From: Burkholderiaceae bacterium
Lineage (GTDB): Bacteria > Pseudomonadota > Gammaproteobacteria > Burkholderiales > Burkholderiaceae_C
Assembly (NCBI GenBank): GCA_004299095.1
Contig: SCQQ01000049.1
Coordinates: 1-45,288, forward strand
Length of the DNA: 45,288 nt
Reading direction: 5' to 3'
In this document: piece after piece, positions 24,044-40,443 of the stretch
Numbering within the stretch: the stretch's first letter is position 1
How the letters are laid out: every line of letters begins with the position of its first letter
Program-made: the position numbers and the translations under genes
The notes under the pieces: generated by a model
The model's input: the letters and a program-made list of their open reading frames with translations, nothing else
Database searches by the model: none
Told to the model about the DNA's origin: nothing

Positions 24044-25278
24044 GGGCAACCGCTTCCGAACGGCAGCGCGTCGTCATCACCGGCATGGGCGCGGTCAGCG
24101 CGCTGGGCCTGGATGCCCGCGCGATGTGGGAGCGCCTGCGCGCCGGGGAAAGCGCGATTGCGCCGCTGCGGCACCCGGACAGCGCCGAATTGCGCGTCAA
24201 GGTGGCGGCACAGGTGCCGGAAGAATTCGAACGCGTGGGTGGCCTGAGCGCCGAGCAATCGACCCTCATGGACCGCAACTCGCAATTGGCGCTGTGCGCG
24301 GCACGGGAAGCGGTGGCGCAATCGGGCCTCGATTTCGACCGGCAGGAACTGGCCCGCAACGCGGCCGTGGTGGTGGGTTGCGGCACCGGCGGCGAGCTGG
24401 CGCACGACCAGCAAAGCCGCCGGATGTATGGCGAGCACAACCCGCGCGTGCACCCCTTCACCATCGTTCGGCTGATGGTGAACGCGCCGGCCAGCCACAT
24501 CAGCATGGCGTACAAGCTGCATGGTCCGTCTTTCGTCGTGGCGAGCGCCTGCGCATCGGCCAACCACGCATTGATTCAGGCGGCGCAGATGATTCGCTCT
24601 GGGCAGACCGACGTGGCGCTCAGCGGCGGCACCGAAGCGTGTCTGAGCTTCAGTTGCTTGCGCGCCTGGGAAGCGATGCGCATTCTGGCGACCGACACCT
24701 GCCGGCCCTTCAGCGCGCACCGCAGCGGCCTGGTGCTGGGCGAGGGGGCGGCGATTTTCGTCCTCGAGTCGCTCGCGCACGCGCGCTCGCGCGGCGCCTC
24801 CATCCTGTGCGAATTCGCCGGCGGCGGCATGAGTGCCGATGGCGCCGACATCGTGTTGCCCAGCGCCGAGGGTGAAGCGCTGGCCCTCGAGCGAGCGCTG
24901 GCGGATGCCGGACTGAATGCCGACGACGTGGACTACGTCAATGCCCACGGCACCGGCACCAAGGCCAACGACAGCACCGAAACGCGCGCGCTGCACCTGG
25001 CGTTTGGCGACCACGCCAAACGCCTGGCGGTCTCGTCGACCAAGGCCATGCACGGTCACGCCCTGGGCGCGGCGGGCGCGCTGGAACTGGTGGCCGTCAT
25101 CGGCGCGCTGCGCGAAGGTGTCGTGCCGCCCACCGTCAACCTGGACGCGCCCGATCCCGAGTGCGATCTGGACTACGTCCCCGGCAGTGCCCGCGCCATG
25201 CCGGTGCGCGCGGCCATGAGCAATTCGTTTGCGTTCGGCGGCTTGAACGCCGTGCTGGCGCTGAAGCGCGCGCCGTAG
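24040..25278 (+). CDS. Beta-ketoacyl-ACP synthase, KAS II (FabF-like)
   Basis: 412 residues, TTG start overlapping the ACP TGA (TTGA). The full Cys-His-His triad is visible: Cys171 in VASACASA, His303 in NAHGTGT and His340 in MHGHALGAAG, with Lys335 in SSTKAM. It should therefore catalyse decarboxylative condensation on the adjacent ACP, and is not a chain-length factor. It ends the exporter operon. No ketoreductase, dehydratase or malonyltransferase is present, so those would come from primary fatty-acid synthesis or be unnecessary. Confidence 0.93.
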   Translation: MRATASERQRVVITGMGAVSALGLDARAMWERLRAGESAIAPLRHPDSAELRVKVAAQVPEEFERVGGLSAEQSTLMDRNSQLALCAAREAVAQSGLDFDRQELARNAAVVVGCGTGGELAHDQQSRRMYGEHNPRVHPFTIVRLMVNAPASHISMAYKLHGPSFVVASACASANHALIQAAQMIRSGQTDVALSGGTEACLSFSCLRAWEAMRILATDTCRPFSAHRSGLVLGEGAAIFVLESLAHARSRGASILCEFAGGGMSADGADIVLPSAEGEALALERALADAGLNADDVDYVNAHGTGTKANDSTETRALHLAFGDHAKRLAVSSTKAMHGHALGAAGALELVAVIGALREGVVPPTVNLDAPDPECDLDYVPGSARAMPVRAAMSNSFAFGGLNAVLALKRAP

Positions 25279-27289: not shown

Positions 27290-28456
27290 CTATCTGATTC
27301 CAGCCGCTTGCGATGCCAACTTTGATGCAGCGTGGGTGAGGCTGTCGACAACCCGCTGTTGCTGCGCTTCCGTGATTCCCATCCACAGGGGCAGCCGAAT
27401 CAAACGCGCGGACTGCCGATCGGTTACAGGCAACTCGTCAGCGAATCGGCCGTACCGCAGGCCGGCGGGTGACGTATGCAAAGGCACGTAATGGAATACG
27501 CAACCGATTCCTTGGCTTCTGAGTTCGGACAGCACGGCGTGCCGATCGATTTCCGGTGCCAGCAGCACGTAATACATATGCGCGTTATGGCTACACTCTT
27601 CGGGCACTACAGGGCGCCGCAACAGCCCGCTGGATTCAAAGCGCGCCAGCATTTCGTTGTAGAGAGCCCAACTGCGCAGTCTCGTTTGTGTAATGCGCGC
27701 AGCTTCTTCGAGTTGTGCCCATAGAAACGCGGCGGTCAATTCTCCCGGCAACATGGAAGAGCCAACCTCTTGCCACGTGTACTTATCAATTTGACCGCGG
27801 AAGAAGCGGCTCCGGTCGGTACCTTTCTCGCGAATAATTTCGGCACGCTCGGCCAGCGAGGCGTCGTTGACAAGTAACGCGCCTCCTTCCCCGGAAATTA
27901 CGTTTTTTGTTTCGTGGAAACTGTAAGCGCCGAAATCGCCGATTCCACCCAAAGCGCGCCCCCTGTACGTCGCCATAACGCCTTGCGCAGCATCCTCGAC
28001 GACGCGGAGCTCGTGGCGCTTGCTAATTGCCATAATCGTATCCATTTCGCAACTAACGCCCGCGTAATGAACCGCCGCGATTGCCCGTGTACGTGGCGTG
28101 ATTGCAGCCTCAACCAAGCGCTCATCCAAGTTCAATGTGTCTTCCCGGACGTCGACAAATACGGGTACACCACCACGCAGAACAAACGCGTTGGCTGTTG
28201 ATACAAAAGTGTACGACGGCATAATGATCTCGTCACCCGGTTCAATATCGAGCAAGAGGGCGGCCATCTCCAGCGCCGCTGTACAAGAATGGGTCAGCAA
28301 CGCTTTGGTGCAGCCAGTGCGCTGTTCCAACCAACTGTGGCAGCGCTTTGTGAACGGTCCGTCGCCCGCTAGCATGCCGCTGAAGTGTGCCTCAGCAATG
28401 TAATAGAGCTCCTTGCCAGTCATGTACGGGCGATTGAATGGGATGGATTCATTCAT
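27290..28456 (-). CDS. dTDP-4-amino-4,6-dideoxyhexose transaminase (WecE/RffA-like)
   Basis: 388 residues, DegT/DnrJ/EryC1 family. The PLP lysine is Lys184 in the WecE-type signature SFHETKNV; Asp155-Ala-Ala in VVEDAAQG is the cofactor-binding Asp region. WecE transfers an amino group from glutamate to C4 of dTDP-4-keto-6-deoxyglucose, giving dTDP-Fuc4N. ArnB of the aminoarabinose pathway is a family relative. It is the last gene of the minus-strand operon and overlaps the thymidylyltransferase gene by 4 nt (ATGA). The needed 4,6-dehydratase (RfbB) is not in the window. Confidence 0.9.
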   Translation of the reverse strand: MNESIPFNRPYMTGKELYYIAEAHFSGMLAGDGPFTKRCHSWLEQRTGCTKALLTHSCTAALEMAALLLDIEPGDEIIMPSYTFVSTANAFVLRGGVPVFVDVREDTLNLDERLVEAAITPRTRAIAAVHYAGVSCEMDTIMAISKRHELRVVEDAAQGVMATYRGRALGGIGDFGAYSFHETKNVISGEGGALLVNDASLAERAEIIREKGTDRSRFFRGQIDKYTWQEVGSSMLPGELTAAFLWAQLEEAARITQTRLRSWALYNEMLARFESSGLLRRPVVPEECSHNAHMYYVLLAPEIDRHAVLSELRSQGIGCVFHYVPLHTSPAGLRYGRFADELPVTDRQSARLIRLPLWMGITEAQQQRVVDSLTHAASKLASQAAGIR

Positions 28457-29337
28457 GACATTTTTCCCAGGTTACGTGTCTCGGTTGCGAGGTGACTGAG
28501 ATAATCTCGATATTCGCAATTTGGCATGGCTTGCACTAGCGCTTCAAAACGCTCGATTGTCAAGAATTTTCGAATTAATGCCGCTTCCTCTGGGCAACCG
28601 ATTTTGATACCCTGCCGACGTTCAATCGCAGCGATGTAGGCAGAAGCCTCTTGCAGTGTGCTGCTAGTTCCTGCATCCATCCAAGCGAATCCGCGGCTTA
28701 GGCGATGGACGTGGAGTTCGCCTCTGCGCATGTATTCCAAGTTAACATCCGTGATTTCCATCTCACCCCGTGCCGAAGGTCGTATCGATCGCGCTATTTC
28801 AAGCACTTGGTTGTCGTATAGATACACACCGGGTACTGCATAGTTGCTTTTTGGTTTTAGAGGTTTTTCCTCCAATGATAATGGTTGGCCCAAGGGCGTG
28901 AATTCAACTACGCCGTAGTGTTCAGGATTTTTTACCAGATATGCAAAAATCGTGGCACCACCGCGAAATGTAGACAGCGCTCGAGGAAAATCGTCACTAC
29001 CAGAAAAAATATTGTCACCCAACATCAACGCAACATTGTCAGTTCCAATAAATTCCTCTGCGATTAAAAATGCCTGTGCAATGCCTGATGGGCGAGCTTG
29101 CTCACGGTGAATAATATTTATACCCCATTGTGTGCCATCATGTAACAAATGTTTAAATCGTGGCAAATCGTTTGACGTAGAAATTAAGCAGATATCGCGA
29201 ATACCGGCTGCAATCAGGACGGTAAGCGGATAATAGATCATCGGCTTATCAAATACCGCCTGCAATTGTTTACTCGTGACCTGAGTTAGTGGATAGAGGC
29301 GTGAGCCCGTACCTCCAGCAAGAATAATAGCCTTCAT
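28453..29337 (-). CDS. rfbA: Glucose-1-phosphate thymidylyltransferase
   Basis: 294 residues. Makes dTDP-glucose from dTTP and glucose 1-phosphate. N-terminal nucleotidyltransferase signature AGGTGSRLYPLT, then SKQLQAVFDKPMIYYPL, LMLGDNIFSG, EEKPLKPKS and WMDAGTSSTLQEAS. It supplies the activated sugar for the transaminase encoded next. Codon and base use are AT-richer than in the flanking housekeeping genes. Confidence 0.95.
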   Translation of the reverse strand: MKAIILAGGTGSRLYPLTQVTSKQLQAVFDKPMIYYPLTVLIAAGIRDICLISTSNDLPRFKHLLHDGTQWGINIIHREQARPSGIAQAFLIAEEFIGTDNVALMLGDNIFSGSDDFPRALSTFRGGATIFAYLVKNPEHYGVVEFTPLGQPLSLEEKPLKPKSNYAVPGVYLYDNQVLEIARSIRPSARGEMEITDVNLEYMRRGELHVHRLSRGFAWMDAGTSSTLQEASAYIAAIERRQGIKIGCPEEAALIRKFLTIERFEALVQAMPNCEYRDYLSHLATETRNLGKMS

Positions 29338-29341
29338 GTCA

Positions 29342-30244
29342 CTACTTTCTCGAAGGCCTCCGCGCCACTACCAAGCGGGAGCCACCTGCTTTAAAGTTTA
29401 TTCCCAATCTAATAAGAAATCGTTCAATTCCCATCACACAATACAGTGCGGTATTCAGTAGTTTTGAAAGTTGTAGTTCTGCAGACAGATTAGATTCGTC
29501 ACCAGCTTTGATCCTTGACCCATCACTGTGATTGGATTTGCGGCCGCGTGACAGGAGCATTGCCGGCAGGAGCAGACTCACAAAAGAGGTGGTGCGCAGC
29601 ACATCAAACCCAGTCGCAGTGACCTTCTTTTGGAGTTCAGTGGTCGTGTAGCGGCGCACATGGCATGCCCGTTCGTCCGTTGCACTCCACAACCACGGAT
29701 GTTGCGGAACGGTTACCAGCAGCAACCCTCCTGGCTTGAGCGATTGATACAACTGTGTAAGGACGGCTTCATCCTCGGGTATATGTTCAAGTACGTCGAA
29801 CGCGCCCACCGCGTCGAACTCTTGCAGGAAAGGAATGCATCGTGCGTCCATTTGCATCAGCTCCGCACTTGGGACGCGCTTGCGAGCGTAAGGCAAGCCT
29901 GCAATGAAGATTTCGCTGCCGCACAACTTCATATCGGTACGCGCGTGCGAAAGCCCCGAAAGTACGAAACCTGTACCACAGCCGATTTCAAGGAACGAAC
30001 GGACACCGCTGCCATAGCGGTTGAGAGTCCACAGGATTAGATGGTTTCTAGAGCGGAACCAGAAATTAGAGCTCTCGAGGGCCTCAATCTCTTTGAATGC
30101 GTCTGGGCGAAAGCCGCCTCCCTTATAGGCCATTTCCGGTGCATGGATCATGAAGCCCTCAGACATCTCAGGCTTATGATTGCATTTTGGACATACCCAA
30201 CTTGAAGTTTCGAATCTATAGCCGCACTTCGAGCAGATCTTCAT
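29342..30244 (-). CDS. SAM-dependent methyltransferase with N-terminal zinc ribbon
   Basis: 300 residues. The N-terminus holds CSKCGYRF ... CPKCNHKP, a zinc-ribbon pair. A class I methyltransferase core follows: FLEIGCGTGFVLSGL (motif I), FDAVGAFDVLEHIPED, and GGLLLVTVPQHPWLWS. A hydrophobic C-terminal region (VSLLLPAMLL; LLNTALYCVMG) may sit at the membrane. It is coupled by ATGA overlap to the small transporter upstream and lies 4 nt from rfbA. A role in methylating the sugar or its acyl group is plausible; the target is not visible. Confidence 0.82.
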   Translation of the reverse strand: MKICSKCGYRFETSSWVCPKCNHKPEMSEGFMIHAPEMAYKGGGFRPDAFKEIEALESSNFWFRSRNHLILWTLNRYGSGVRSFLEIGCGTGFVLSGLSHARTDMKLCGSEIFIAGLPYARKRVPSAELMQMDARCIPFLQEFDAVGAFDVLEHIPEDEAVLTQLYQSLKPGGLLLVTVPQHPWLWSATDERACHVRRYTTTELQKKVTATGFDVLRTTSFVSLLLPAMLLSRGRKSNHSDGSRIKAGDESNLSAELQLSKLLNTALYCVMGIERFLIRLGINFKAGGSRLVVARRPSRK

Positions 30245-30567
30245 AGTGGAACCTGAGGTAGATTATAAATCGCAACCCCACAAACAATCAAAATCATCGC
30301 CAGCCAATGTCGTTGCGAAATACTCTCCTTAAAAACTACTCGCGCTCCTAGAGGGGCAAGTACATAAATCAGAGCTGCTGCCACGTAAACTCTTCCAATG
30401 CCAAAACCTCGTACCGCAAGATACGTAAACGGTATAGTTAATATAAAAAATGAAATTGCTGAGCAGAGCAAATAGACTTTCTTATATATATAATAACCTT
30501 TGAAGGTCAACTGCGCGAGAATACTTGTCGAAATGCAAACAATTAATGCAATTAGGTGGATCGTCAC
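30241..30567 (-). CDS. ArnE-like small flippase subunit (EamA/SMR)
   Basis: 108 residues with four membrane helices, close to the length of ArnE. The first helix contains ISTSILAQLTFKGYYI, the family polar site, and the end contains LAMILIVCGVAIYNLP. It overlaps by 4 nt both the methyltransferase and its partner transporter. By analogy with ArnE/ArnF it would flip an undecaprenyl-phosphate-linked amino sugar to the periplasm. The DNA here is markedly AT-rich. Confidence 0.8.
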   Translation of the reverse strand: MTIHLIALIVCISTSILAQLTFKGYYIYKKVYLLCSAISFFILTIPFTYLAVRGFGIGRVYVAAALIYVLAPLGARVVFKESISQRHWLAMILIVCGVAIYNLPQVPL

Positions 30568-30968
30568 AACAGTTCACTTTTTTCAAGTGATTCACGAGCT
30601 GGGCGCCAAAGCAAAATTACTACGCCAGCCACGACCAATGAAGCGCCTGTTATTTGAATAAGAGAAATATGCTCTCCATAAAGCCATGCGAGGATTAGCA
30701 GGCAAGGAAAGAATAACGCTGTGATAGGATACGCGGTACTTACAGGAAATCGTTTATGAATTGCTCCCCACACCATCAAACGAACAAGACCAAGTATCAT
30801 GACGAACATAAATATTAACATTAAATTCATCAAACGGTCATCCTGACGAATGGACGCGAGCTTTATCAAGGACGCGTTGATCAATTGCAATATAATGTTA
30901 ATTATGACGAGCGTAAGTAGCAGCGTCGTTCTTGCTTGCGGTTTGACGTCGGTCGTTGGCTGCGGCAT
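30564..30968 (-). CDS. ArnF-like small flippase subunit (EamA/SMR)
   Basis: 134 residues, four membrane helices after a hydrophilic N-terminus (TTLLLTLVIINIILQLINASLIK; LMLIFMFVMILGLVRLMVW; TALFFPCLLILAWLYGE; ITGASLVVAGVVILLW). The size matches ArnF. It overlaps its partner as ATGA, so stoichiometric coupled synthesis is expected. 38 nt separate it from the ACP gene upstream. Confidence 0.8.
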   Translation of the reverse strand: MPQPTTDVKPQARTTLLLTLVIINIILQLINASLIKLASIRQDDRLMNLMLIFMFVMILGLVRLMVWGAIHKRFPVSTAYPITALFFPCLLILAWLYGEHISLIQITGASLVVAGVVILLWRPARESLEKSELL

Positions 30969-31006
30969 GAAAGTAGATCAAGTTCCTTTGTTTGCTCTGT
31001 GTGGCC

Positions 31007-31246
31007 TTATTTGAGCTCACAAGCCTTCTGATAGAAACTATTTATTGTGTTCGCTTTGGCGGGGTCAAGTTCGCCGAAGTCTAATCCTGTAATGGTTTCG
31101 ACTTGAATTACAAGATCCATGGCATCCAATGAGTCAAGTCCTACAACCGTGAAATTCTCATCATCTGAGATATTAACAGTATTCAGTGATTTGATTTGTT
31201 TTATGCTTTTAAAAACGGCTGTCCTAAAATCGTCCTTGCTGATCAT
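31007..31246 (-). CDS. Acyl carrier protein, dedicated
   Basis: 79 residues. VVGLDSLDAMDLVIQVE holds the phosphopantetheine attachment serine, Ser39, in a standard DSL motif. It is AT-rich and unlike AcpP in the flanking residues. It lies between the flippase pair and a KAS III gene, so it probably carries the acyl group destined for the sugar. Confidence 0.9.
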   Translation of the reverse strand: MISKDDFRTAVFKSIKQIKSLNTVNISDDENFTVVGLDSLDAMDLVIQVETITGLDFGELDPAKANTINSFYQKACELK

Positions 31247-31289
31247 AAATCACCCCTTTTTGATCTAGTAGAATCTCACTTCGATCCCA

Positions 31290-32243
31290 TCAAGTTTCGT
31301 CGGATATCTCTTGATTGTTGTCAAGTATCATGGTTGCCCAGGACAGGCCGACTCCGAATCCACTGAGGAGTATGCGCGCTGGCCGGTCGTTGAGTCGTGA
31401 GAGTGGCAACAACGGCAAACTTGATGACACGGTATTGCCAGTATGCGTGGCCTCGAAAGGGACTTTAGCGGGAGGCAGTCCGAGTTTTTTTGCCAAGCTT
31501 TCAACGATGAAGCGACTACCCTGATGAAATAGAAATATATCGATGTCGTTAATTGATAGTGACTCTCGCGTCAAATAGGCTATGATCTGCTGAGGGACTA
31601 CGGTCATGCAGAATTTGAACACGTTGCTACCCAGCATGGAGAGCGTTCCGGCGACGGGATCGATCTGGATCGAATGTCCCAGATTGCCGTCGGTGCCGAA
31701 CATCGGAGGTCGAATACGATAGATGGGGTTGGATGAGATCCAAGTGCAGGTGGCGGCGTCACCAAACAACAGTTCAGTATTCCAATCTTTGTGGTCGAGA
31801 ATGCGAGAGTAGGGATCTGCCGTGAACAGAAGGCCGTTTTGCATGCCGTTGGCTTGCATGAATCCAAGGATGATCGAGAGGCCATAGACGTAGCCCGAAC
31901 AACCGAGAGAGATGTCAAAGCACGCCACACCCTTTGGGAATCCCAGCTTTTTGTGAACAATTGCGGAGGTATGCGGCAATCCCTTGCCATCCGGATTCTG
32001 CGTACAAACGACGACACAATCCAATTGATTTGCTCTTACGGTGGTCCGCTTGCAGAGATCCTCGAAGGCCGCGACGCAGAGATCCGAGGCTTGTGTTTCC
32101 GGCGTCGCACGGGCGACTGACACGAAGCCAATTTTGTCGCGGATGAAATCTTCGTCTTTCCCTGAGATCTTTGCGCGATCCAAGTTTGAAATAGTGTGTG
32201 AAGCAATCGACTGGCCGAGGGCTCTGATACCTATCATTTCCAT
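31290..32243 (-). CDS. Beta-ketoacyl-ACP synthase III (FabH-like)
   Basis: 317 residues. The KAS III triad is complete: Cys115 in ISLGCSGYVYG, His240 in LFHQGSR and Asn270 in THTGNTVSS, with the GFGVGLSW C-terminal loop. It should start or extend a short acyl chain on the neighbouring ACP. It overlaps the unknown gene upstream by 10 nt. Related enzymes in O-antigen loci make the acyl groups used to modify amino sugars, which fits the LpxD-like acyltransferase two genes upstream. Confidence 0.92.
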   Translation of the reverse strand: MEMIGIRALGQSIASHTISNLDRAKISGKDEDFIRDKIGFVSVARATPETQASDLCVAAFEDLCKRTTVRANQLDCVVVCTQNPDGKGLPHTSAIVHKKLGFPKGVACFDISLGCSGYVYGLSIILGFMQANGMQNGLLFTADPYSRILDHKDWNTELLFGDAATCTWISSNPIYRIRPPMFGTDGNLGHSIQIDPVAGTLSMLGSNVFKFCMTVVPQQIIAYLTRESLSINDIDIFLFHQGSRFIVESLAKKLGLPPAKVPFEATHTGNTVSSSLPLLPLSRLNDRPARILLSGFGVGLSWATMILDNNQEISDET

Positions 32244-32791
32244 ATTCCAAAGAATATTTGACCTAGATCAATGTCATATGAATGAATGTCACCCTGGACG
32301 AACTGTCCCATATGCCTGGTATAAGATATTTGAAATGACCCTTCAAAGCTTCGCAGCAGGCGAATACGGGCAAACGCATATTGTGCGCCGACGGGGATTG
32401 TGTATGTTTTGTGAAGTAAGTACTTGAAACTCGCAACAATTGCGTCGATCGTACTGAAAGGTTGAATCTTGTCGGAAACGATTACATTGGTTTGATCTAG
32501 CTTAAATTGAGCTTGGAGCTCATTTTCATCATAGGCTTCTCGGTCCTGGATAAGTTCTGATCGTTCGATGACGTACAGCGTTCCAGCGGAATCCTTCCAC
32601 TTGGCAACGGGCGGGGCTCCAAGAGCGGGCGTAGTATCAACGTATGTTACCTGGTGGCCAGTTCTGCGATAGAACATCATATCGATATTCTCAGCAGCGC
32701 CACCACGGAATTGGAGCATATCGTTGAACAAAGACGTGCTGTGCAAGTAGTTTCGGTGGCCGCGTAGGCGAAAGGTACGGTCATTTCTCAT
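32234..32791 (-). CDS. Protein of unknown function in the acyl-sugar operon
   Basis: 185 residues with no motif I recognise and no signal peptide or membrane helix. The start is basic and aromatic (FRLRGHRNYLHSTSLFND). The middle is acidic (RSELIQDREAYDENELQAQF), and the C-terminal half has alternating hydrophobic residues suggesting beta structure. It overlaps the LpxD-like gene by ATGA and the KAS III gene by 10 nt, so it belongs to the operon. Between a condensing enzyme and an acyltransferase it might process the beta-ketoacyl-ACP (reduction, dehydration or binding). That is a guess from position only. Confidence 0.75.
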   Translation of the reverse strand: MRNDRTFRLRGHRNYLHSTSLFNDMLQFRGGAAENIDMMFYRRTGHQVTYVDTTPALGAPPVAKWKDSAGTLYVIERSELIQDREAYDENELQAQFKLDQTNVIVSDKIQPFSTIDAIVASFKYLLHKTYTIPVGAQYAFARIRLLRSFEGSFQISYTRHMGQFVQGDIHSYDIDLGQIFFGIWK

Positions 32792-33714
32792 GAGTTGCGG
32801 CTTTCCGACAATTGGCGAAGATTGCTAATGTGGTTGGTTGCAAAATTCCCCGAAACGTCCTCCCCATTGGGGACATCTCGAACAACGACTGCACCCAACC
32901 GGACGCGGGCATCGTTACCGATCGTCAGCGCATTGGAGATTGTTGCGGACGCGCCGATCCAGGCACGTGCGCCGATACGAGCTCGTCCAGCAATGACACA
33001 ATGGCTGGATAAGGTGGCCGCTTCGCCGATAGTGACGTCGTGGCCGATATTCGCCATGATGCCAATATGCGTGGAACCACCGATCTTGGTCGCTTCGCCA
33101 CGGATTGCCGAGCGCACGATAATCGCACCGGCATGGATGTGCGACGACGGGCCGATCTCCACGCCGCCAAAATGCGGAATGTGTTGTCGGCGACCCAAGA
33201 TGCTTTTCGCGTATAAACCGTCACACCCAATGATGGCCCCTGCTTCGATGCGTGTGCCGTGCCCTATGCGAATTGGTCCAATGATGCTGACGTGTGGTCC
33301 GACACATACGTCGGTTTCGATTCGAATCCGGCCGAGAAGGATAGCCGAGGGATCTATGGTGGCGCTTGGGTCTATGAGCGGTGTCTCGGCGCTGACCAAG
33401 GTTTGCTGCTGCAACGTGTGAAGATACAGGTAGAGCTCTTCCGCTTTGTCGCAGACTATCAATGCCTTGGGCGTGACCGGTGCTTGGACCGCAACTTCCG
33501 GTGGCACGATGATTGCGCGCACAGAACGGTTTTCGAGCGCCAGTTGCATGTACTTGAGATTAATGGCGAGACAGACCACCCCTTGCTGTTGCGTCCAGAC
33601 AAATCCGGTCTGGCGTAGTTCCGGCAAGGCCTGCGGGTGATCGACGCGCAAGAGGCCGAAGCGCTCACCCATTCGTTCAAGCACTGTTTCAGGTTTCGTG
33701 ATCCAGTAATTCAT
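32788..33714 (-). CDS. LpxD-like acyl-ACP-dependent N-acyltransferase
   Basis: 308 residues. An N-terminal LpxD-type sugar-nucleotide domain (about residues 1-105) precedes a left-handed beta-helix of hexapeptide repeats (PSATIDPSAILLGRIRIE through ARIGARAWIGASATIS). The active-site region includes IGCDGLYAK and IGHDVTIGEA. It is shorter than LpxD (about 340) and sits far from lpxA/fabZ, so it is not the lipid A enzyme. Best reading: it moves an acyl chain from the operon's ACP onto the amino group made by the WecE-like enzyme. Overlaps both neighbours by 4 nt. Confidence 0.85.
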   Translation of the reverse strand: MNYWITKPETVLERMGERFGLLRVDHPQALPELRQTGFVWTQQQGVVCLAINLKYMQLALENRSVRAIIVPPEVAVQAPVTPKALIVCDKAEELYLYLHTLQQQTLVSAETPLIDPSATIDPSAILLGRIRIETDVCVGPHVSIIGPIRIGHGTRIEAGAIIGCDGLYAKSILGRRQHIPHFGGVEIGPSSHIHAGAIIVRSAIRGEATKIGGSTHIGIMANIGHDVTIGEAATLSSHCVIAGRARIGARAWIGASATISNALTIGNDARVRLGAVVVRDVPNGEDVSGNFATNHISNLRQLSESRNS

Positions 33715-34706
33715 GCGTTGTCGGATTCACTGAGGTCATTTGTTTCGGTGCTTCCTATCGTACGTCGTACAACGTACAGCGGTTGGCCTCGGCTTTCTCC
33801 GAGAATGCGTAGCAAGTATTCTCCGGCCACACCGACCGACAGCAAACCGAGACCTGCGTAGAAATTGATTGCAAGAAAAAGGCTGGTCCAGCCCGGCACA
33901 CCGCCTTTGCTGAACAAATGGATCAATATATAAATCACACCTAGAATAAAACTGAGTAAAGAGACACCGACACCAATTATTGAAATTAATTGAAGTGGCA
34001 ACGAGCTGAAGCTTAAAATATCATCAAGTGTAGCACGAATAAGTCTTATCAGATTATAATTTGAGGTACCATGTCTACGTTTGTCATGCTGGATCGTGAC
34101 GTTCTCGATGCGTCGAGTATTGCTAAGAATAAGAGCGCCAATTATTGGGTAATATGTATGATTTGCAAGCAAGGCATCTACCAATTGCCGATTCAAGCAA
34201 CGGAAGGAAGACATCACGAGATTTCTGGGTTTGTGAAAAATATAAGTATTAACAGCTCGCAGCAATAAACTGCCTACATTGCGCCAAGCCGAGTGTTGTT
34301 TTATTTTATAGGCACCAAACACAGCATCCAGACGTGGTGATTCGCGCAGATGGTTATAGAGTTTGCTAATTTCTTCCGGTGGATGTTGCAGATCATCGTC
34401 CATCGTAATAACATAACGCCCCCGCGCGTGAGCGAGACCGCACATTAGTGCGCGAAACTGACCGACGTTATGCATTAATTCTATGTAACGAACGTTGGGG
34501 TAACAGTGTATTTCGTGTTCCACAGAAACATCAAGGTCATCACCGGCACAGTCGTCGACCAAGATGATTTCGTATGAAACGTTAATGCACGAGAGAGCGG
34601 AACTGAGCCGATCCAACAACTCGGAAATCACAGCCGTAGTACAATAGCACGGTATAACCACAGAGATCTCTGTGACGGAGTGGTTAGTGTCTATGCTATT
34701 TTTCAT
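33711..34706 (-). CDS. ArnC/DPM1-like family 2 glycosyltransferase
   Basis: 331 residues. GT-A domain with VVIPCYCTT, EIILVDDCAGDD and the metal-binding VITMDDDLQHPPEE. Two C-terminal membrane helices follow (LPLQLISIIGVGVSLLSFIL; SLFLAINFYAGLGLLSVGVAG). This is the layout of ArnC, which places Ara4FN on undecaprenyl phosphate. It probably transfers the acylated amino sugar from dTDP to the same carrier. Overlaps the LpxD-like gene as ATGA; 116 AT-rich nt separate it from the GT-C gene upstream. Confidence 0.88.
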   Translation of the reverse strand: MKNSIDTNHSVTEISVVIPCYCTTAVISELLDRLSSALSCINVSYEIILVDDCAGDDLDVSVEHEIHCYPNVRYIELMHNVGQFRALMCGLAHARGRYVITMDDDLQHPPEEISKLYNHLRESPRLDAVFGAYKIKQHSAWRNVGSLLLRAVNTYIFHKPRNLVMSSFRCLNRQLVDALLANHTYYPIIGALILSNTRRIENVTIQHDKRRHGTSNYNLIRLIRATLDDILSFSSLPLQLISIIGVGVSLLSFILGVIYILIHLFSKGGVPGWTSLFLAINFYAGLGLLSVGVAGEYLLRILGESRGQPLYVVRRTIGSTETNDLSESDNA

Positions 34707-34822
34707 GAATAGTTGCTATTGACAAATTCATTCAACTGGCGTCATCATGAACCTAACGTAAATAGTAGGCTGAATAATTTACGCGGTAGGGAACCGGATA
34801 GTGGACAGGACTGGGACTCACT

Positions 34823-36610
34823 TCAATGCGTCAATGATCGGGAATTGTCGGGCGCATATAATATCTGTGTGCGTATTGCATTGTAGCCTCCGGCGCCAAC
34901 TGCGGTCGTCCAGTGGGCGATCGCGCTGTACTCCTGCGGAAATGGGAGGCCCAGCTTGGTCACGACAGTATTTGGAAGACTCAAGGGCCCATTTTCCTCG
35001 CACAATATCCAAGCGGACCGGAAGGTACGGCGAGGAACCTGATTCAGGGCCGACTCGGCGCGTACAGCGCTCCCGGGGTAGCCGCCGATCATCCACGCCT
35101 GACCAAGGTTTCGCGCGCCTAGAACGTAAAGCAATCCGGGTGAATGTCCAGTCAAATCGATAATTGGCATGCCCGGTTGGAAGCCCGCAACAGCGGCCGC
35201 GTGTTTTGCTTCACCAATAAAGTCGGCGTAATCGGCTGATAGCGTCAACAGAGATCCCGGTTTACCAACCTGCACAACACGGGTGTTTTGCCAAAGAGGC
35301 TGTGGCTGACGGTAAGGATGAGCAATGCTGGTTTGCAGGAGTACCGCAGAGATTGCGATAGCGGCCAGAGAAATGGGGGCGCTGAACACCCAGCCCTGCT
35401 GGGTTCGGGCGATTGGACCAAGCAGGACGATTCCCGCGAGTAACCAAAACAATGCGACGTGACTGGCCTGATACCAGTAATTGTTATTGGTCCCAAACGC
35501 AAAGACGTAGGGCATGACCAGAAGCCATAGCGCAATCCCCCATTGCCGACGTGTGATGTGAGCAGGGAGGCCCTGTCTGAAGACGTAAATCGCGAATAAT
35601 ACCGCAGTGAAAACCAAGCCAAAAATGATCAGTGACTGATATTGACCCAGTATTGGAGTCGCTTTCACGACATTCGAACTCCACGCAGCTCCGCTCACGA
35701 ATAGCAGAACGGAAACAGCAAGTCCCAGCCGTCTCGTCAGCGTAGCTTTTGATTGACTAAGCAGCATGGCGCCCAAAGGGGCTACGGTAAGCAGGAAGAT
35801 TGCCAGCTTGGCATTGCGAATGAGCTGGAAGTCGTCGATCCGCAGGATTTGCCCCAGCGTATGGCCACCTTCCAATGAACCGGACATGACGTACGCGGTC
35901 TGCAAGCGATCAATAAATTGAGAAATAGAGCCGTCGATCAGGAAAGCGCTGATCAATAGCAGAGCCAAGGCAATGCTGGCAGCCAATATGAGTTTACGGA
36001 TGCCAAACTTTTCTGACAACAACCCATAAATTAAGACGCCAATTGCCAACAAAACAGCGGTGCTTGGCTTGGCCATGAACGCTAGCCAGCCCCCAATGCC
36101 CACCAATGTCGCACCAGCCAAAGCGCCGAGCCTATCCTGCCGGCCAGCGAGAAGCAGCCCGGTAGTCGTAATCAGCAGCGATTGAAAGGTGAGCGTGTTG
36201 TAGTTGGGCGTCAGGAGACCAATTTGGAACACGACCAATGACGTCGTCGCGATGCCTGTGCTGATGATGAGCGTCGTGGCCTTGAGCGCTTGCGTTTCTT
36301 CTGCGAGCGATTTCAGGAGCAGTGTCACCAGCCACCACGCGAGGCCGAAAGTAATCAGAACATTGGCTCGCCGCAAAGCGGCAATGTTGCCGTTGAGCAC
36401 TTCGTAAAGCGGATGGTAGATGAAACCGAATTGAGTAAGCGACCAGTGGTATGCAAATGGATTGGACATCCAGACCAAGTAGAAACCTTCATCCGTGAAG
36501 TCGAAACCAAAGCCACTGTAGTAAAGGATATGTGCCAGTACCAACACCACGCCGGTGGCCGTCAGCAACACAGGGAGACGTGCCACGGTAAGGTGGTTTT
36601 TGATGGTCAT
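34823..36610 (-). CDS. GT-C membrane glycosyltransferase (ArnT/PMT-like)
   Basis: 595 residues from MTIKNHLTVARLP; the frame extends to 36673, without homology-like sequence. About a dozen membrane helices, then a soluble periplasmic C-terminal domain (from about residue 440). The first periplasmic loop holds FTDEGFY (Asp40-Glu41), the acidic pair expected in GT39/GT83 enzymes. ArnT-type enzymes take an undecaprenyl-phosphate sugar and attach it to lipid A or another acceptor. It is first in the operon and sits directly beyond the tRNA terminator and attL. Confidence 0.8.
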   Translation of the reverse strand: MTIKNHLTVARLPVLLTATGVVLVLAHILYYSGFGFDFTDEGFYLVWMSNPFAYHWSLTQFGFIYHPLYEVLNGNIAALRRANVLITFGLAWWLVTLLLKSLAEETQALKATTLIISTGIATTSLVVFQIGLLTPNYNTLTFQSLLITTTGLLLAGRQDRLGALAGATLVGIGGWLAFMAKPSTAVLLAIGVLIYGLLSEKFGIRKLILAASIALALLLISAFLIDGSISQFIDRLQTAYVMSGSLEGGHTLGQILRIDDFQLIRNAKLAIFLLTVAPLGAMLLSQSKATLTRRLGLAVSVLLFVSGAAWSSNVVKATPILGQYQSLIIFGLVFTAVLFAIYVFRQGLPAHITRRQWGIALWLLVMPYVFAFGTNNNYWYQASHVALFWLLAGIVLLGPIARTQQGWVFSAPISLAAIAISAVLLQTSIAHPYRQPQPLWQNTRVVQVGKPGSLLTLSADYADFIGEAKHAAAVAGFQPGMPIIDLTGHSPGLLYVLGARNLGQAWMIGGYPGSAVRAESALNQVPRRTFRSAWILCEENGPLSLPNTVVTKLGLPFPQEYSAIAHWTTAVGAGGYNAIRTQILYAPDNSRSLTH

Positions 36611-36675: not shown

Positions 36676-36708
36676 AAACAAAAGCGCCCGGCTAACGCTA
36701 GCCGGGCG
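36676..36708 (-). terminator. Original terminator of tRNA-Ala, now separated from it
   Basis: Perfect 10-bp stem CGCCCGGCTA (36685-36694) / TAGCCGGGCG (36699-36708) with a 4-nt loop. Read on the minus strand it is followed by CTTTTGTTT. It begins 8 nt beyond the CCA end of the tRNA fragment in the left repeat, where a tRNA terminator belongs. The intact tRNA gene is now about 7.2 kb away. Confidence 0.82.
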
Positions 36709-36712
36709 TGAA

Positions 36713-36763
36713 TGGTGGTGGAGAGGAGGAGGATCGAACTCCCGACCTCTGCATTGCGAACGC
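36713..36763. repeat. Left attachment site (51-bp direct repeat)
   Basis: Identical over 51 bp to 43919-43969. It contains the 3' 48 nt of tRNA-Ala (36716-36763, minus orientation: anticodon loop through CCA) plus 3 bp. Sequence diverges immediately after 36763. This is the displaced chromosomal 3' end of the tRNA gene. Confidence 0.93.
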
Positions 36764-36793
36764 CACCGAAAGCGTGTCCGCGCCTCTGGCCCA

Positions 36794-36846
36794 GTCCCAT
36801 TTTCCATAGCTAATCCACGCACCCATTGTCCCGCCCGTGTCCCACG
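36794..36846. promoter_or_regulatory. Candidate integrase arm-type sites, left end
   Basis: GTCCCGCC (36828-36835) and GTCCCACG (36839-36846) repeat with an 11-bp period. A further GTCCCAT is at 36794. The same 8-mer and the same 11-bp spacing recur at the right end (43858-43876), in the same orientation. Confidence 0.5.
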
Positions 36847-37170
36847 AAAAGGCGGCGGGAGCGGGTAGTGTAGCGCGGCCCTTCGGGGGAAATTTTGCTG
36901 GGGATTTTCGCGGGGGTACACGCCGCCCGCCCCCCGCGCACGCGCCCCCGTGTGGCCCTCCGCAGAACGCTTGGGGGGAACCATCTGGCCATGGCCCGGC
37001 GCGGCCTTCCTGTCGCAGCGCCGACAGGCTCGGCGGGCAGCTCAGGGAGCATGTGCCCGAGCGGAACGCGAGCCAACGGCACGCAAGAAACCTGTCCAGT
37101 TGAGGTACACCCTGTCATGACGCCTAACGATCGCTTGAAGTCTGTCAGATTGAAATTGGTTACGGGGCAC
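36847..37170. other. GC-rich non-coding left flank of the element
   Basis: No gene I can support. The stretch is very GC-rich at 36850-37000 with G and C runs, then approaches average composition toward the resolvase promoter. Open frames here have no protein-like character. It may hold replication or transfer sites, but none is recognised. Confidence 0.4.
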
Positions 37171-37199
37171 TTGACACATTTGCTCGGATGGTCTAGAGT
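37171..37199 (+). promoter_or_regulatory. Sigma-70 promoter of the resolvase gene
   Basis: TTGACA (37171-37176), a 17-nt spacer and TAGAGT (37194-37199): a consensus -35 and a good -10 at ideal spacing. Transcription would start near 37206, about 65 nt before the ATG. Confidence 0.78.
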
Positions 37200-37230
37200 A
37201 CAACCTGACACTGCCGCTTTGGCACCACAC

Positions 37231-37244
37231 GTCAACACGTTGAC
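37231..37244. promoter_or_regulatory. Inverted repeat in the resolvase leader
   Basis: GTCAAC-AC-GTTGAC, 6-bp perfect arms, located about 25 nt after the predicted start site and before the ribosome site. A candidate operator for one of the element's HTH proteins or for the resolvase itself. Confidence 0.45.
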
Positions 37245-37270
37245 ACCCGCATCATCAAAGGACTACCACC

Positions 37271-37864
37271 ATGCCAGGACAAGTCATCGCCTACCGCCGC
37301 GTTTCCAGTGTTGACCAGAACACCACTCGCCAGCTTGAAGGCCGCACGTTCGATGTTGAGTTCGAGGACAAGGCCAGCGGCAAGGACACCAAGCGCCCGC
37401 AGCTTGCGGAAATGCTCCGCCATATCCGTGCGGGCGATACCGTGGTGGTGCATAGCATCGACCGCCTAGCCCGCAATGCCAGCGATCTATTGGCACTGGT
37501 GAAAACGATCACTGGCCAGCCCAAGGACGGCGGCAAGGGGGCCGCGCTCGAATTCGTCAAGGAAGGGCTACGGTTCAGCGGGAACAAGGCCAGCCCAACG
37601 GATGAACTCATGCTGAACATGCTGGGCGCGGTGGCGCAGTTCGAGCGCAGCATGATCCATGAGCGACAGGCCGAAGGCATCGCCGCTGCCAAAGCGCGGG
37701 GCGCGTACAAGGGCAGCAAGCCGAAGGTCACGGATGCTCAAGTCCAGGAAATACTTGCCCGCGTTCAGGCCGGGGAGCCCAAGGCGGCCATTGCCCGTGC
37801 CCTGGGCATCAGTCGTGAAACGCTTTACCAGAGGATGAAGGCCGTCACTGCTGCGAGCGCGTGA
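37271..37864 (+). CDS. Serine recombinase (resolvase/invertase family)
   Basis: 197 residues. Catalytic Ser12 lies in AYRRVSSVDQNTTRQL, followed by HSIDRLARNASDLL, then AQFERSMIHERQAEGIAAAKARGAYKG and a C-terminal HTH (AAIARALGISRETLYQRM). This is the full small-resolvase layout of about 180-200 residues. AAAGGA at 37257-37262 lies 8 nt before the ATG. It may resolve dimers of the excised element or invert a segment; no paired inversion sites were found by eye. It is driven by the strong promoter upstream. Confidence 0.93.
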   Translation: MPGQVIAYRRVSSVDQNTTRQLEGRTFDVEFEDKASGKDTKRPQLAEMLRHIRAGDTVVVHSIDRLARNASDLLALVKTITGQPKDGGKGAALEFVKEGLRFSGNKASPTDELMLNMLGAVAQFERSMIHERQAEGIAAAKARGAYKGSKPKVTDAQVQEILARVQAGEPKAAIARALGISRETLYQRMKAVTAASA

Positions 37865-38544
37865 TTGGCCGCTAGGCGCGGGATGGGCCGTCTACACAGC
37901 GTGCGGCCGCACCGCCTATGGTGGCTACGCCGGGGAGCTGCAACCCGGCCACCCATGCTATCCAGTGAGGCGCTGAGCTGGCGGGGCGGAACCACGGGCA
38001 AACCTACGCCGCCACATATCGACTGACCGGCCACCAAGGTCGAAAGGACGCCCCGCACTTCCTGGCCTGGAGCTATAGCGGTGCCCACGGGGCGGGCGCC
38101 TTCCGTGCACCGCGTAGAAGCTGCGCGCCGCACTGCGTGCAGAGCTTAGAAGGAGCGCGTCACGCGTGCGACGCCCTAAAACGCCCTAGAACGCGATTAC
38201 AGCGGTTTAGACCTCAACTACCACCCGCATGCGAAAGCCCGTCCTGGGCCGTTCTGACGCGCCCTAGGCCACCCTGCCACCCACACGCCGCCAGCCCCCT
38301 GGCCTATGTCCCAGCGTCCACAGTGGCTAGGCGCGCTGATCCATTGTTTTCGTTGCCCAATGCGGACACACACATCAATTCCGACGCTCGCGAATCGCCC
38401 AACGAATCGCCCAGCGACGGAAGGCGAACACCACGCCGCCAAGCGTGAGCGGCATTCCTGGCCGCACTGCGCACCTGGTGCGCACCATTTTTACAGACTT
38501 CTCTATAGGTACTACGTACCTAATCGATCCAAAAGAGGAACCCC
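37865..38544. other. 680-nt region without a supported gene
   Basis: The largest gene-free stretch in the element. It holds a 10-bp tandem motif at 38171-38195 (ACGCCCTAAA, ACGCCCTAGA, then ACGCG) and another GCCCTA near 38262. Two palindromes lie close to the next gene. Short frames here lack start sites and convincing composition. The repeats could be iterons or resolvase (res) subsites; this is unproven. Confidence 0.45.
38476..38520. promoter_or_regulatory. Two palindromes upstream of the HTH protein gene
   Basis: TGGTGCGCACCA (38476-38487) is a perfect 12-bp palindrome. GGTAC-TAC-GTACC (38508-38520) is an inverted repeat with 5-bp arms. Both lie within 70 nt of the ATG at 38545, with an AT-richer patch between them (TTTTTACAG), suggesting an operator-promoter region, possibly autoregulatory. 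Confidence 0.5.
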
Positions 38545-39405
38545 ATGAACGAAGATTTACACGCGGCCATCAATGACGATGCTGAGCGTACCGCCAAGCT
38601 CGCCGCCGAGCGAGCCGCAGAGATAGCCGCGATGGTTGCGGGAGCTGCGAAGGCAATCCAGGCGGGGAAACTCGACCTGGAGAACTTCAGCCCAAGCATG
38701 CAGAACGCCATTAAGAAATACACGGCCCGCAATCTTGCAGTGACGCCCCAGCAGTTCCACGCAAAGCAGCACCACGAATTGGCCAAGTTCTTCCGGGAAC
38801 TCCGGGCACGTGGCTTCAAGGTGTACCGCACGACGCAACGGGATCACGATTACATCTTCGGCAGCATCCCGCACATCGTTGATTCAGGAACTAGGCCCGC
38901 AGTCAAGCCCATGCTGAGGGAGTACGCCGAGCAGCAAGGCTACCCGCCAGAGTGGGCCGAGCGCGTGGCCACCAAAAGCCAACCAAAAAAGATGGGGCGT
39001 TCCCTCAAAACGAAACAGGCGCACCCCGTAATCCGGGACCTCAAGGAAGGGCACATGTTCACACAGACACACCAAGCCGCGCTAAAGCAAGCCACCTACA
39101 GCGGGATCGCTGAGCTGCTTTTCTCCGGTTCCCAGTCCGCACGGGAAAAGCGGGCCATGAATGCACGCATGGCGGCACTGGAAACCGAGCTGGCCACCGT
39201 CAAGGCGGCAGCGCACCGGGCCAATACTCGGTTGAACATCATGGATGCCGGGCTCGATTGGAAAGAGAAAGTGCGTTCCATCCTTGCGATGGAGCCCAGT
39301 ATTTCCAAGCGTGAACTAGCCCGGCGCGTAGGCAAATCGGAAAGCGCGGTCCGCAAGTACTGGACGGCCCTTGACCAAGGGCACGGCATCGGTGCCACGG
39401 CATAA
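38545..39405 (+). CDS. Unknown protein with coiled coils and C-terminal HTH
   Basis: 286 residues. The N-terminus is an Ala/Glu-rich helix (about 10-45). The middle contains RGFKVYRTTQRDHDYIFGSIP, which I do not recognise. A second coiled coil lies at about 200-235 (MAALETELATVKAAAHRANT). The C-terminus (250-280) looks like a helix-turn-helix, SKRELARRVGKSESAVRKYW. AGAGGA precedes the ATG. It may be a DNA-binding regulator or replication-associated protein of the element. The end overlaps the next frame. Confidence 0.75.
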   Translation: MNEDLHAAINDDAERTAKLAAERAAEIAAMVAGAAKAIQAGKLDLENFSPSMQNAIKKYTARNLAVTPQQFHAKQHHELAKFFRELRARGFKVYRTTQRDHDYIFGSIPHIVDSGTRPAVKPMLREYAEQQGYPPEWAERVATKSQPKKMGRSLKTKQAHPVIRDLKEGHMFTQTHQAALKQATYSGIAELLFSGSQSAREKRAMNARMAALETELATVKAAAHRANTRLNIMDAGLDWKEKVRSILAMEPSISKRELARRVGKSESAVRKYWTALDQGHGIGATA

Positions 39406-39994
39406 ATACGGTCCAAGGTCGCTCCTGCCAGCACTACAAGCGCATGAACGCCGGCTAGGCATCCGGCTTACCGCAAGCAAGCTAACACGCGCCAAGCGGG
39501 AGCTGGCCCGAGCCGATCCGGCCGTGGCCGCGCACTTCAAGCGGCGAATCCGCGAACCTGCCCGGTTCGATGCGTTCATGGCGTGCCGCTCCGCGTTCAT
39601 CAGCGACACCCCATGCGCCCGGTGCGGATCGCAGAAGCGGACGGTCTACACGGCTTCATGCTGGCAATGCCAGATTACACGACGGCCCTTGCGGCTTGAT
39701 GCCCATGGCGCGGTGCTGGCATGGCCCCCGGCCCAGCGGACGCGGGAAAGCTTCTTGGACGTGCACGCACGCAAGCGCCGGGCCAAGGCGGGCGAGTGCG
39801 TGGAGTTCAACGCTGGCGATGTCTTGGCCCGGAAATATCCCGATGGCCGCCTGTTCATTGAGCGGACAGAGCGTGCCCCGCGGTTCCATATCGAGGATGC
39901 GAACAGGCTCCCGCCCGCCGGTGCAGCTTGGCTACTCGACCAGATGAAAAGCGATCCGAACCTACGAGCCGTGGCCGCTTGGGACAACTGGTAA
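39371..39994 (+). CDS. Unknown protein with central zinc ribbon
   Basis: Up to 207 residues. The longest frame starts with TTG 39371; GTG 39392 has AAGGG about 10 nt upstream and may be the true start. Either overlaps the preceding gene, so translation is likely coupled. The N-terminal third is basic and helical. CARCGSQKRT ... CWQCQ is a four-cysteine ribbon, and an acidic C-terminal part follows. Possibly nucleic-acid binding. No family recognised. Confidence 0.65.
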   Translation: MTKGTASVPRHKYGPRSLLPALQAHERRLGIRLTASKLTRAKRELARADPAVAAHFKRRIREPARFDAFMACRSAFISDTPCARCGSQKRTVYTASCWQCQITRRPLRLDAHGAVLAWPPAQRTRESFLDVHARKRRAKAGECVEFNAGDVLARKYPDGRLFIERTERAPRFHIEDANRLPPAGAAWLLDQMKSDPNLRAVAAWDNW

Positions 39995-40027
39995 TCGGGC
40001 ACCTTCAACAACCATCAGAGGGAAATC

Positions 40028-40432: not shown

Positions 40433-40443
40433 GAGAGAAAACC

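Follow-up and report, generated by a model that had tools for sequence, protein, structure and literature searches.

The DNA analyzed here, called the window throughout, is a stretch of 45,288 nucleotides (positions 1 to 45,288 of contig SCQQ01000049.1, forward strand) from a Burkholderiaceae bacterium whose assembly, GCA_004299095.1, comprises 3.14 Mb in 122 contigs and is 99.5% complete. It carries an operon of 11 intact, tightly packed genes at 27290-36610, all on the minus strand, which are predicted to encode enzymes that make an amino sugar, proteins that handle an acyl chain, and membrane proteins for sugar transfer. In order of position, the genes are:

27290..28456, minus strand, WecE/RffA dTDP-4-amino-4,6-dideoxygalactose transaminase, 388 amino acids (aa) (TIGR02379, NF008687)
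28453..29337, minus strand, RfbA/RmlA glucose-1-phosphate thymidylyltransferase, 294 aa (TIGR01207)
29342..30244, minus strand, class I methyltransferase with a zinc-ribbon-like N-terminus, 300 aa (PF13489, 57.9 bits)
30241..30567, minus strand, SMR/EamA-like small membrane protein 2 (SMR2), 108 aa (PF00892, E 9e-4, under the cut-off)
30564..30968, minus strand, SMR/EamA-like small membrane protein 1 (SMR1), 134 aa (PF00892, E 3.2e-5, under the cut-off)
31007..31246, minus strand, acyl carrier protein (ACP), 79 aa, with a DSL motif (PF00550)
31290..32243, minus strand, ketoacyl synthase III (KAS III, FabH-type), 317 aa (PF08541/PF08545)
32234..32791, minus strand, U, 185 aa, probable hot-dog fold, no accepted Pfam or NCBIfam family
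32788..33714, minus strand, LpxD-like left-handed beta-helix (LbH) N-acyltransferase, 308 aa (PF00132)
33711..34706, minus strand, GT2 polyprenyl-phosphate sugar synthase, 331 aa (PF00535, 86.7 bits)
34823..36610, minus strand, GT-C glycosyltransferase, 595 aa (predicted fold)

These genes are best read as two modules: a glycosylation chassis, consisting of RfbA, WecE, the methyltransferase, the SMR-like pair, GT2, and GT-C, and an acyl module, consisting of ACP, KAS III, U, and the LpxD-like N-acyltransferase. Intergenic gaps run from -10 to +4 bp at seven of the ten junctions, with the two SMR-like genes overlapping by 4 bp, and wider spacing is seen between SMR1 and ACP (38 bp), ACP and KAS III (43 bp), and GT2 and GT-C (116 bp). 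The GT-C frame starts at the ATG at 36610, and starting from a GTG further upstream, at 36673, would lengthen the protein to 616 aa. A first-pass annotation of this DNA had already named genes here, and every one of them is open, on the minus strand, and located where it said. The gene set is not a product of chance: eight of the ten proteins scanned had a Pfam match at E ≤ 0.01, those of the SMR-like pair lying under the curated cut-off; the ACP matches PF00550, the GT-C assignment comes wholly from the predicted fold, and neither U nor GT-C matched anything in Pfam or NCBIfam.

The transaminase scored well over the WecE/RffA cut-offs (TIGR02379, 631.4 bits against 434.85; NF008687, 615 against 375), and this family membership indicates that the sugar is 4-amino-4,6-dideoxygalactose (Fuc4N) and that the scheme is a WecE-fed three-component system, in which a charging enzyme, a small flippase, and a GT-C act together. 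The first-pass annotation had read the enzyme as a counterpart of ArnB and the whole as an Arn-like pathway; we reject the ArnB reading on the curated cut-off (NF008658, 217.5 bits against 631), so that the plan it drew was right in outline but carried the wrong label. It was correct that no ArnA- or ArnD-like family occurs among the 11 operon proteins, to which that search was confined, the rest of the genome not being searched for them, and none of the ten operon proteins scanned passed an Arn cut-off in NCBIfam. RfbA scored over its own cut-off (TIGR01207, 380.8 bits against 360.65). RmlB is encoded elsewhere in the host genome (474 bits), and the dehydratase step missing from the operon is therefore available. 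Homologs of the methyltransferase lie in WecE loci of Rhizobium plasmids, at 43% and 39%.

Among the acyl-chain proteins, the ACP was over the PF00550 cut-off (27.4 bits against 20.8), and the Cys-His-Asn triad of KAS III was intact, as the first pass had stated (C115, H240, and N270), and invariant in all eight aligned KAS III sequences. KAS III remained under the FabH cut-off (TIGR00747, about 150 bits, 149.8-150.4, against 292.1), while another locus in the host genome, to which it is 30% identical, passes FabH at 413.6 bits, so the operon KAS III is an extra copy. The acyltransferase scored under the cut-offs of LpxD (TIGR01853, 79.6 of 242.5 bits; NF002060, 102.8 of 207) and of NeuD/PglB/VioB (95.2 of 160.8 bits); its nearest NCBIfam models are LpxD and NeuD/VioB, then LpxA, and its best matches in the PDB are LpxA and LpxD. 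Its H225 aligned in phmmer with a His both in LpxA structures (within 'AHD') and in one of LpxD (within 'AHN'), residues that we take to be the catalytic bases. No reductase, elongating KAS I/II, or dehydratase family was matched in the operon with Pfam or NCBIfam. A second ACP-like frame, recognized by eye, and a ketoacyl synthase (PF00109/PF02801) lie on the plus strand at 23768-25278; these have host-like GC content and are apparently unrelated to the operon.

The kinship of the acyltransferase with LpxD and LpxA would also fit an alternative in which the same chassis carries a longer 3-hydroxyacyl group taken from the lipid A pool of the host, with KAS III and ACP doing no more than priming or channeling it and a lipid-like amino sugar as the product, since LpxD uses host 3-hydroxyacyl-ACP. 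We consider this unlikely, while ranking it first among the alternatives, because use of the host pool would make a dedicated ACP and KAS III pointless, because the operon had no match to the elongating, reducing, and dehydrating families, and because a pseudaminic acid locus in another genome (G714, described below) pairs this U-KAS III-ACP core with another type of LbH protein, a shorter one.

U is, judged by its sequence, the founder of an unnamed protein family, in which R13, G58, E89, K123, R142, G177, I179, and F181 are invariant among six full-length members. An AlphaFold2 (AF2) model built from three sequences had a mean pLDDT of 56.4, with residues 1-86 under 50 and about 60-80 thereafter, and its C-terminal part has strands ahead of a helix of 16 residues and four more strands after it. 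FabZ and thioesterases ranked first in Foldseek, with a best E of 1.8e-3 (FabZ) and none of 826 matches at E ≤ 0.001, and on this model a hot-dog fold is likely. We discarded the idea that U is itself a FabZ, as FabZ has a conserved catalytic His and no His is invariant among the six full-length members. YiiD, a protein with a hot-dog domain, is reported to be a malonyl-ACP decarboxylase (PMC8666670), and such a role is a further option for U. Viral contigs contained no relatives of U, the LpxD-like protein, or KAS III.

On the membrane side, the first-pass annotation had called GT2 and the small proteins counterparts of ArnC, ArnE, and ArnF, and all of the curated cut-offs for these were missed. 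ArnC was the best NCBIfam model for GT2 (NF007986, 160.8 bits under a cut-off of 529), with PgfS next, and the two C-terminal helices described earlier correspond to two hydrophobic regions in a plain hydropathy scan. SMR1 scored 22.6 bits against ArnE (cut-off 92) and 16.8 against ArnF (cut-off 99), and SMR2 scored 21.9 against ArnE (cut-off 92); with four hydrophobic segments in SMR2 and four to five in SMR1, the pair fits ArnE/ArnF in size and hydropathy but not in bit scores. SMR1 also resembles the SMR-like gene of another genome of the order, G226 (tblastn E 1e-4), and we infer that the pair are putative flippase subunits. GT-C has about 11 hydrophobic segments in a plain hydropathy scan, no sequence match to PDB chains at E ≤ 10, and no relatives in phages. 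Its AF2 model, built from four sequences, had a mean pLDDT of 66.9 and a pTM of 0.72, and Foldseek returned six PDB matches at E ≤ 0.001 with query TM-scores of 0.30-0.43. The first three ranks came from translocon complexes, two of them with oligosaccharyltransferase (OST) named in the title, and these chains presumably represent STT3; ranks 4-12 were GT-C enzymes by title (OST, ArnT, AftA, and DPY19), with four OST or translocon chains at or above ArnT (5ezm, E 5.1e-4). The structure prediction that the first pass had proposed for GT-C thus gave a fold resembling ArnT, OST, and AftA, and the low TM-scores mean that the fold class is supported and nothing narrower. Two genes of the PMT family (PF02366) lie elsewhere in the host genome.

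Relatives of both modules were counted in overlapping samples that ranged from 60 to 398 genomes. A tblastn search with KAS III led to a Pontibrevibacter plasmid that encodes in a row an ACP, an LpxD-like protein (35%), a 203-aa homolog of U, and KAS III (49%), followed by an FdtA/QdtA cupin and a DegT transaminase. A scan of genome contigs for KAS III, based on weak patterns, gave five loci: two LpxD-U-KAS III-ACP groups in metagenome-assembled genomes (MAGs), the Pontibrevibacter species again, and two MAG loci with KAS III and no U. In one of the MAG cassettes (L016), a DegT transaminase frame (27%) lies just upstream. L016 and the other cassette, L017, are labeled Aeromonadales and Chromatiales and have the cassette and most of their flanking frames in common, so one of the two taxonomic labels is probably wrong. 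Plasmids searched with the window's U gave nothing, and with the U of L016 gave only Pontibrevibacter.

A profile of U, with KAS III left out of the search, found three loci among 368 other genomes of the class (G786, G948, and G714), one among 299 other genomes of the order (G236), and none among 397 other genomes of the phylum at E ≤ 0.001; a phylum-sample match in G618 (E 0.009, 16 bits, one internal stop) was set aside as chance. In all four loci KAS III adjoins U and ACP adjoins KAS III, the detection in G948 being limited to the C-terminal half of U. Counting the window, all seven distinct loci with U have KAS III as its neighbor and an ACP in the same cluster; the search began from the window and KAS III led to two others, which leaves four as an independent test. 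This association, present in every U locus found, is new relative to the first-pass annotation. The LpxD-like transferase is present in five of the seven; in its place G714 has a shorter LbH protein (sub-threshold PglD_N) and G948 an Antibiotic_NAT protein. Searches of E. coli genomes for DNA encoding KAS III and U found none.

The sugar genes next to these acyl genes differ from locus to locus. G786 has RfbA (50%), a fusion of a dTDP-sugar isomerase with FdtA, and a DegT protein. In G236 the transaminase is nearest to DesI (537 of 650), with an FdtA/QdtA homolog (59% to that of Pontibrevibacter) and a second DegT further along. PseC and PseI occur in G948, and PseF and PseI in G714, and from their gene content these two loci (L077 and L078) probably make N-acyl variants of pseudaminic acid. 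The acyl module therefore adjoins pathways for FdtA/QdtA 3-amino sugars, a DesI-like 4-amino sugar, and pseudaminic acid. A plasmid of Pseudomonas veronii (L012, 7.1-10.9 kb) has a member of this KAS III subfamily beside annotated phbB and phbC, with no U, a setting in keeping with a group of KAS III enzymes that makes a C4 3-hydroxyacyl product.

That relatives of the acyl module sit in polysaccharide-like (L011, L076, and L085) or nonulosonate (L077 and L078) loci, with ABC exporter-like genes recognized by eye beside L076 and L085, raises the alternative that the operon feeds an ordinary polysaccharide, such as an O-antigen or capsule, with GT-C resembling a polymerase or ligase instead of decorating with single sugars; the OSTs among its fold matches would be compatible with this. 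We judge it improbable, as there is a single GT2 among the 11 genes and none of them belongs to an initiating transferase, Wzx, or Wzy family, and as an ArnC/PgfS-type GT2 with small membrane proteins and one GT-C is the three-component pattern described in the accessible part of PMC11127046.

Relatives of the chassis were sought with GT-C. It matched in two of 249 other genomes of the order, G173 (42%, with a second copy at 27%) and G226 (33%); its four-sequence profile gave no match at E ≤ 1e-10 in the class sample (311 other genomes). Four plasmid records also carry it: two strains of Neorhizobium galegae (43%) and a pair of Rhizobium records whose coordinates coincide (33%), one of which was read. 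G226 has on one strand GT-C (32%), GT2 (30%), a GNAT acetyltransferase (222 aa; PF13673, 36.3 bits over 23.6), an SMR-like protein of 122 aa (ArnF model, 28.4 bits, under the cut-off), two methyltransferases where the window has one, and WecE (68%, 642 bits). The shared genes stand in the same order in G226 and the window, and GNAT, between GT2 and the SMR gene, occupies the place of LpxD-U-KAS III-ACP. The N. galegae plasmid pNgVX encodes GT-C (42%), WbqC, a methyltransferase, GT2 (27%), a second methyltransferase, RfbA (70%), and WecE (77%), and in the second strain the same genes are rearranged around a transposase-like frame recognized by eye. Rhizobium N731 has GT2, GT-C (35%), and WbqC on one strand and WecE (53%), methyltransferases (one 39% to the window's), and an EamA-like protein on the other. 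In G173 (L008), GT-C is accompanied by a DegT transaminase (nearest DesI, 311 of 650), WbqC, an ATP-grasp protein, GT2, GtrA, and RfbA (74%). WecE is thus near GT-C in three of the four other loci, N. galegae and Rhizobium being counted once each, and the fourth has a different DegT transaminase. Rhizobium Q54 encodes WbqC, GT2, GtrA, a methyltransferase (43%), RmlB, RfbA, and WecE (71%), with no GT-C homolog in the stretch read.

No homologs of KAS III or U were found in these six stretches (L008, L010, and L086-L089) with the window's proteins (tblastn, E ≤ 1e-4), and chassis versions elsewhere carry GNAT or WbqC in place of the acyl module. Each half of the operon has a conserved neighborhood of its own elsewhere, which is new relative to the first-pass annotation; the neighborhood search that it had suggested bore fruit for each half, but not for the two together. 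L086-L089, which are on the Neorhizobium and Rhizobium plasmids, and L008 share WecE or another DegT transaminase, GT2, and WbqC, along with methyltransferases except in L008, the GT-C found here in four of the five, and a GtrA or EamA-like gene in some. These five may represent a family of amino-sugar export loci with WbqC as the N-modifying gene, as far as their gene content suggests.

Taken together, we propose that the operon makes, N-acylates, and exports Fuc4N, using a three-component chassis fitted with a portable acyl module, and we put the probability of this reading at roughly 0.6. The likely product is N-(3-hydroxybutyryl)-Fuc4N linked to undecaprenyl phosphate, with the acyl chain, the acceptor, the step of U, and the flipping as the more conjectural parts. 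By family, RfbA would form dTDP-glucose, RmlB from elsewhere in the genome would give the 4-keto sugar, and WecE would aminate it to dTDP-Fuc4N. KAS III could condense a short acyl-CoA with a malonyl unit on the operon's ACP, host FabG could reduce the 3-keto group, and U may act on or hold the short acyl-ACP, after which the LpxD-like enzyme, by its family, would transfer the acyl group, presumably and most likely 3-hydroxybutyryl, to the 4-amino group. The methyltransferase probably targets the sugar or the acyl group. By family, GT2 would put the sugar onto undecaprenyl phosphate and the SMR-like pair would flip the lipid-linked sugar, and GT-C, from its fold, would move the sugar from the lipid carrier to some surface acceptor, which might be lipid A, core, or another molecule. 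An Arn-like gate of formylation and deformylation would be unneeded because the N-acyl group would stay on. Gene content supports what the first pass had put forward on two points, the N-acylation of a dTDP-4-amino-4,6-dideoxyhexose by dedicated acyl-ACP machinery and the participation of a polyprenyl-phosphate-type GT2 and a GT-C.

Several observations weigh against this proposal. A second locus with both the chassis and the acyl module was not found. The KAS III subfamily occurs without U at 4 of 11 distinct loci, namely in P. veronii, in Azospirillum, and on two MAG contigs (one of which begins only 0.7 kb upstream of KAS III), and the KAS III tree, largely unresolved with just two well-supported forks, does not set the U-linked members apart. 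The SMR-like proteins are under every family cut-off, and relatives of GT-C are few in the order and class samples. G226 has a single SMR gene against two in the window, lacks RfbA in the stretch, and its GNAT does not match any WecD-specific model; no SMR-like frame was seen on pNgVX, and gene order on the rhizobial plasmids is unlike that of the window. The operon has no ketoreductase, so reduction would come from the host or not take place, and the viosamine island of P. syringae pv. tabaci has one, VioR (PMC3927599, accessible part). Moreover, enteric 3-hydroxybutanoyl sugars need no dedicated KAS III, as far as the accessible parts of PMC4869667 and PMC3726653 describe them.

Going further, we suggest, with somewhat less than even confidence, that U, KAS III, and ACP form a portable donor-making cassette in unrelated amino-sugar pathways, in which U would determine the acyl group as a new hot-dog enzyme, and that the cassette is fitted here into a Fuc4N export chassis so that acyl identity is exchanged as a module. 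If so, it would serve Fuc4N, another 4-amino sugar, 3-amino-dideoxyhexoses, and pseudaminic acid, each with its own N-acyltransferase. The operon as read here would join two ideas that have been described separately, the purpose-made short acyl tags seen on flagellin and the polyprenyl-phosphate export of single sugars seen on lipid A and O-antigen. The recurrence of U-KAS III-ACP gives the unnamed U family a context in several glycan pathways, which makes the function of U testable with purified enzymes, and sequences could be screened for the group to predict N-acylated amino sugars.

The base composition of the operon differs from its surroundings, with GC content at third codon positions of 0.34-0.63 in its 11 genes against 0.80-0.85 in three flanking genes. 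Per kilobase, GC is 0.44-0.59 from 27 to 37 kb, and the remainder of the window has 0.60-0.72. The operon thus looks foreign and was probably acquired. U was not found in 28 other genomes of the host genus, some of them incomplete. Among stretches from the genus on the rpiA side, rpiA is present in 17 of 17, two of which are truncated where the contig ends and span 0.8 and 2.7 kb, and none of the 11 operon proteins is found there (tblastn, E ≤ 1e-5); gene order beyond rpiA is not conserved in the frames inspected, so there is no clean empty site for the operon. Such a foreign composition and the lack of relatives in the genus would also fit if the operon made a secreted small glycolipid or signal, or were decaying after transfer, with no surface glycan in either case. 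This is very improbable given that the 11 frames are intact, that the tested catalytic residues are kept, and that exporting a lipid-linked sugar is a sensible task for an SMR pair and a GT-C of about 11 segments.

Directly upstream of the operon lies a 7.2-kb mobile element (36713-43969) with perfect 51-bp repeats at its ends (36713-36763 and 43919-43969), the repeat being the 3' part of a tRNA-Ala(CGC) gene (43922-43997). Its frames include a tyrosine integrase (42856-44001) and a serine resolvase (37271-37864). We rejected the operon as part of this element, since the repeats bracket the neighboring 7.2 kb and not the operon. One further feature lies between the two:

36685..36708, minus strand, terminator-like hairpin between the tRNA-derived repeat and the operon

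The hairpin has a 10-bp stem (-20.9 kcal/mol, z -3.23), the longest among the terminator-like matches, which number 12 against 12.2 expected, and the mobile element seems to have displaced it from its tRNA.

Compared with known systems, the operon shares its plan with the Arn pathway, which modifies lipid A with L-Ara4N by means of a transaminase, a GT2 acting on undecaprenyl phosphate, a small SMR-like pair, and a GT-C. Unlike Arn, it has WecE instead of ArnB, a dTDP instead of a UDP sugar, and no ArnA or ArnD, and N-acylation would presumably be kept in the product. In the enterobacterial common antigen branch, RffH/RmlA, WecE, and WecD make the dTDP-Fuc4N sugar, and the operon would reach dTDP-Fuc4N via the same enzyme families, with the acetyltransferase WecD replaced by ACP/KAS III/U/LpxD-like and, as far as its genes show, no trisaccharide assembly.

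The three-component systems, GtrA/GtrB/Gtr* and the O1 ribofuranosylation of C. youngae, combine a polyprenyl-phosphate charging enzyme, a small flippase, and a GT-C, and the C. youngae flippase ORF14, called MATE, is likened to EmrE and ArnE (PMC11127046, accessible part). The operon resembles them in a GT2 that has C-terminal membrane regions by hydropathy and a GT-C fold in a model of moderate confidence, with the SMR-like pair, under the curated cut-offs, as the putative flippase. It differs from what is described there in that its donor would be an amino sugar N-acylated with a group that the operon itself produces, and in that its GT-C has no Pfam family. As for the acyl group, several of the sugar classes that adjoin the acyl module are known to bear (R)-3-hydroxybutanoyl, namely Fuc3N, Qui3N, and pseudaminic acid at N7 (PMC4869667, PMC3726653). 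The FdtAB/QdtAB and FdhC/QdhC systems of E. coli O103, Acinetobacter, and Hafnia likewise use a nucleotide-linked dideoxy amino sugar, but carry this group on 3-amino sugars, whereas that of the operon would be a 4-amino sugar; the accessible parts of the same reports assign the acyl step to one transferase, FdhC or QdhC, and mention no dedicated ACP or KAS III. Flagellar islands of Aeromonas carry an ACP and a 3-oxoacyl-ACP reductase (PMC7874193, accessible part), and the Shewanella sfm operon has a reductase, with no KAS III mentioned in the accessible part of PMC3765264.

The first-pass annotation knew of no described system with this combination, and for the exact set of genes we likewise found no description in the open-access literature searched; the component classes, however, are described together on a dTDP-4-amino sugar, as the viosamine island of P. 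syringae pv. tabaci has an ACP, a KAS III, an acyltransferase, a methyltransferase, and a transaminase (PMC3927599). In the accessible part of that report, the island comprises vioA, vioM, vioT, vioS (KAS III), vioB (acetyltransferase), vioR (ketoreductase), and acp; its product on flagellin is N-(3-hydroxy-1-oxobutyl)-2-O-methyl-viosamine by mass spectrometry, by which vioR and vioM mutants were also analyzed. The seven-gene list given there has no unassigned protein, whereas the operon has U, and a lipid carrier, flippase, or GT-C is not described; the 1,173-aa VioT moves the sugar to the flagellin glycan, whereas the operon has only the 331-aa GT2 and the 595-aa GT-C, and the sugar is of the gluco form (Qui4N) instead of Fuc4N. 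At the level of classes, both have a transaminase-made dTDP-4-amino-4,6-dideoxyhexose, an ACP, a KAS III, an N-acyltransferase, and a methyltransferase, and by this analogy the viosamine island is the closest precedent for the chemistry proposed for the operon.

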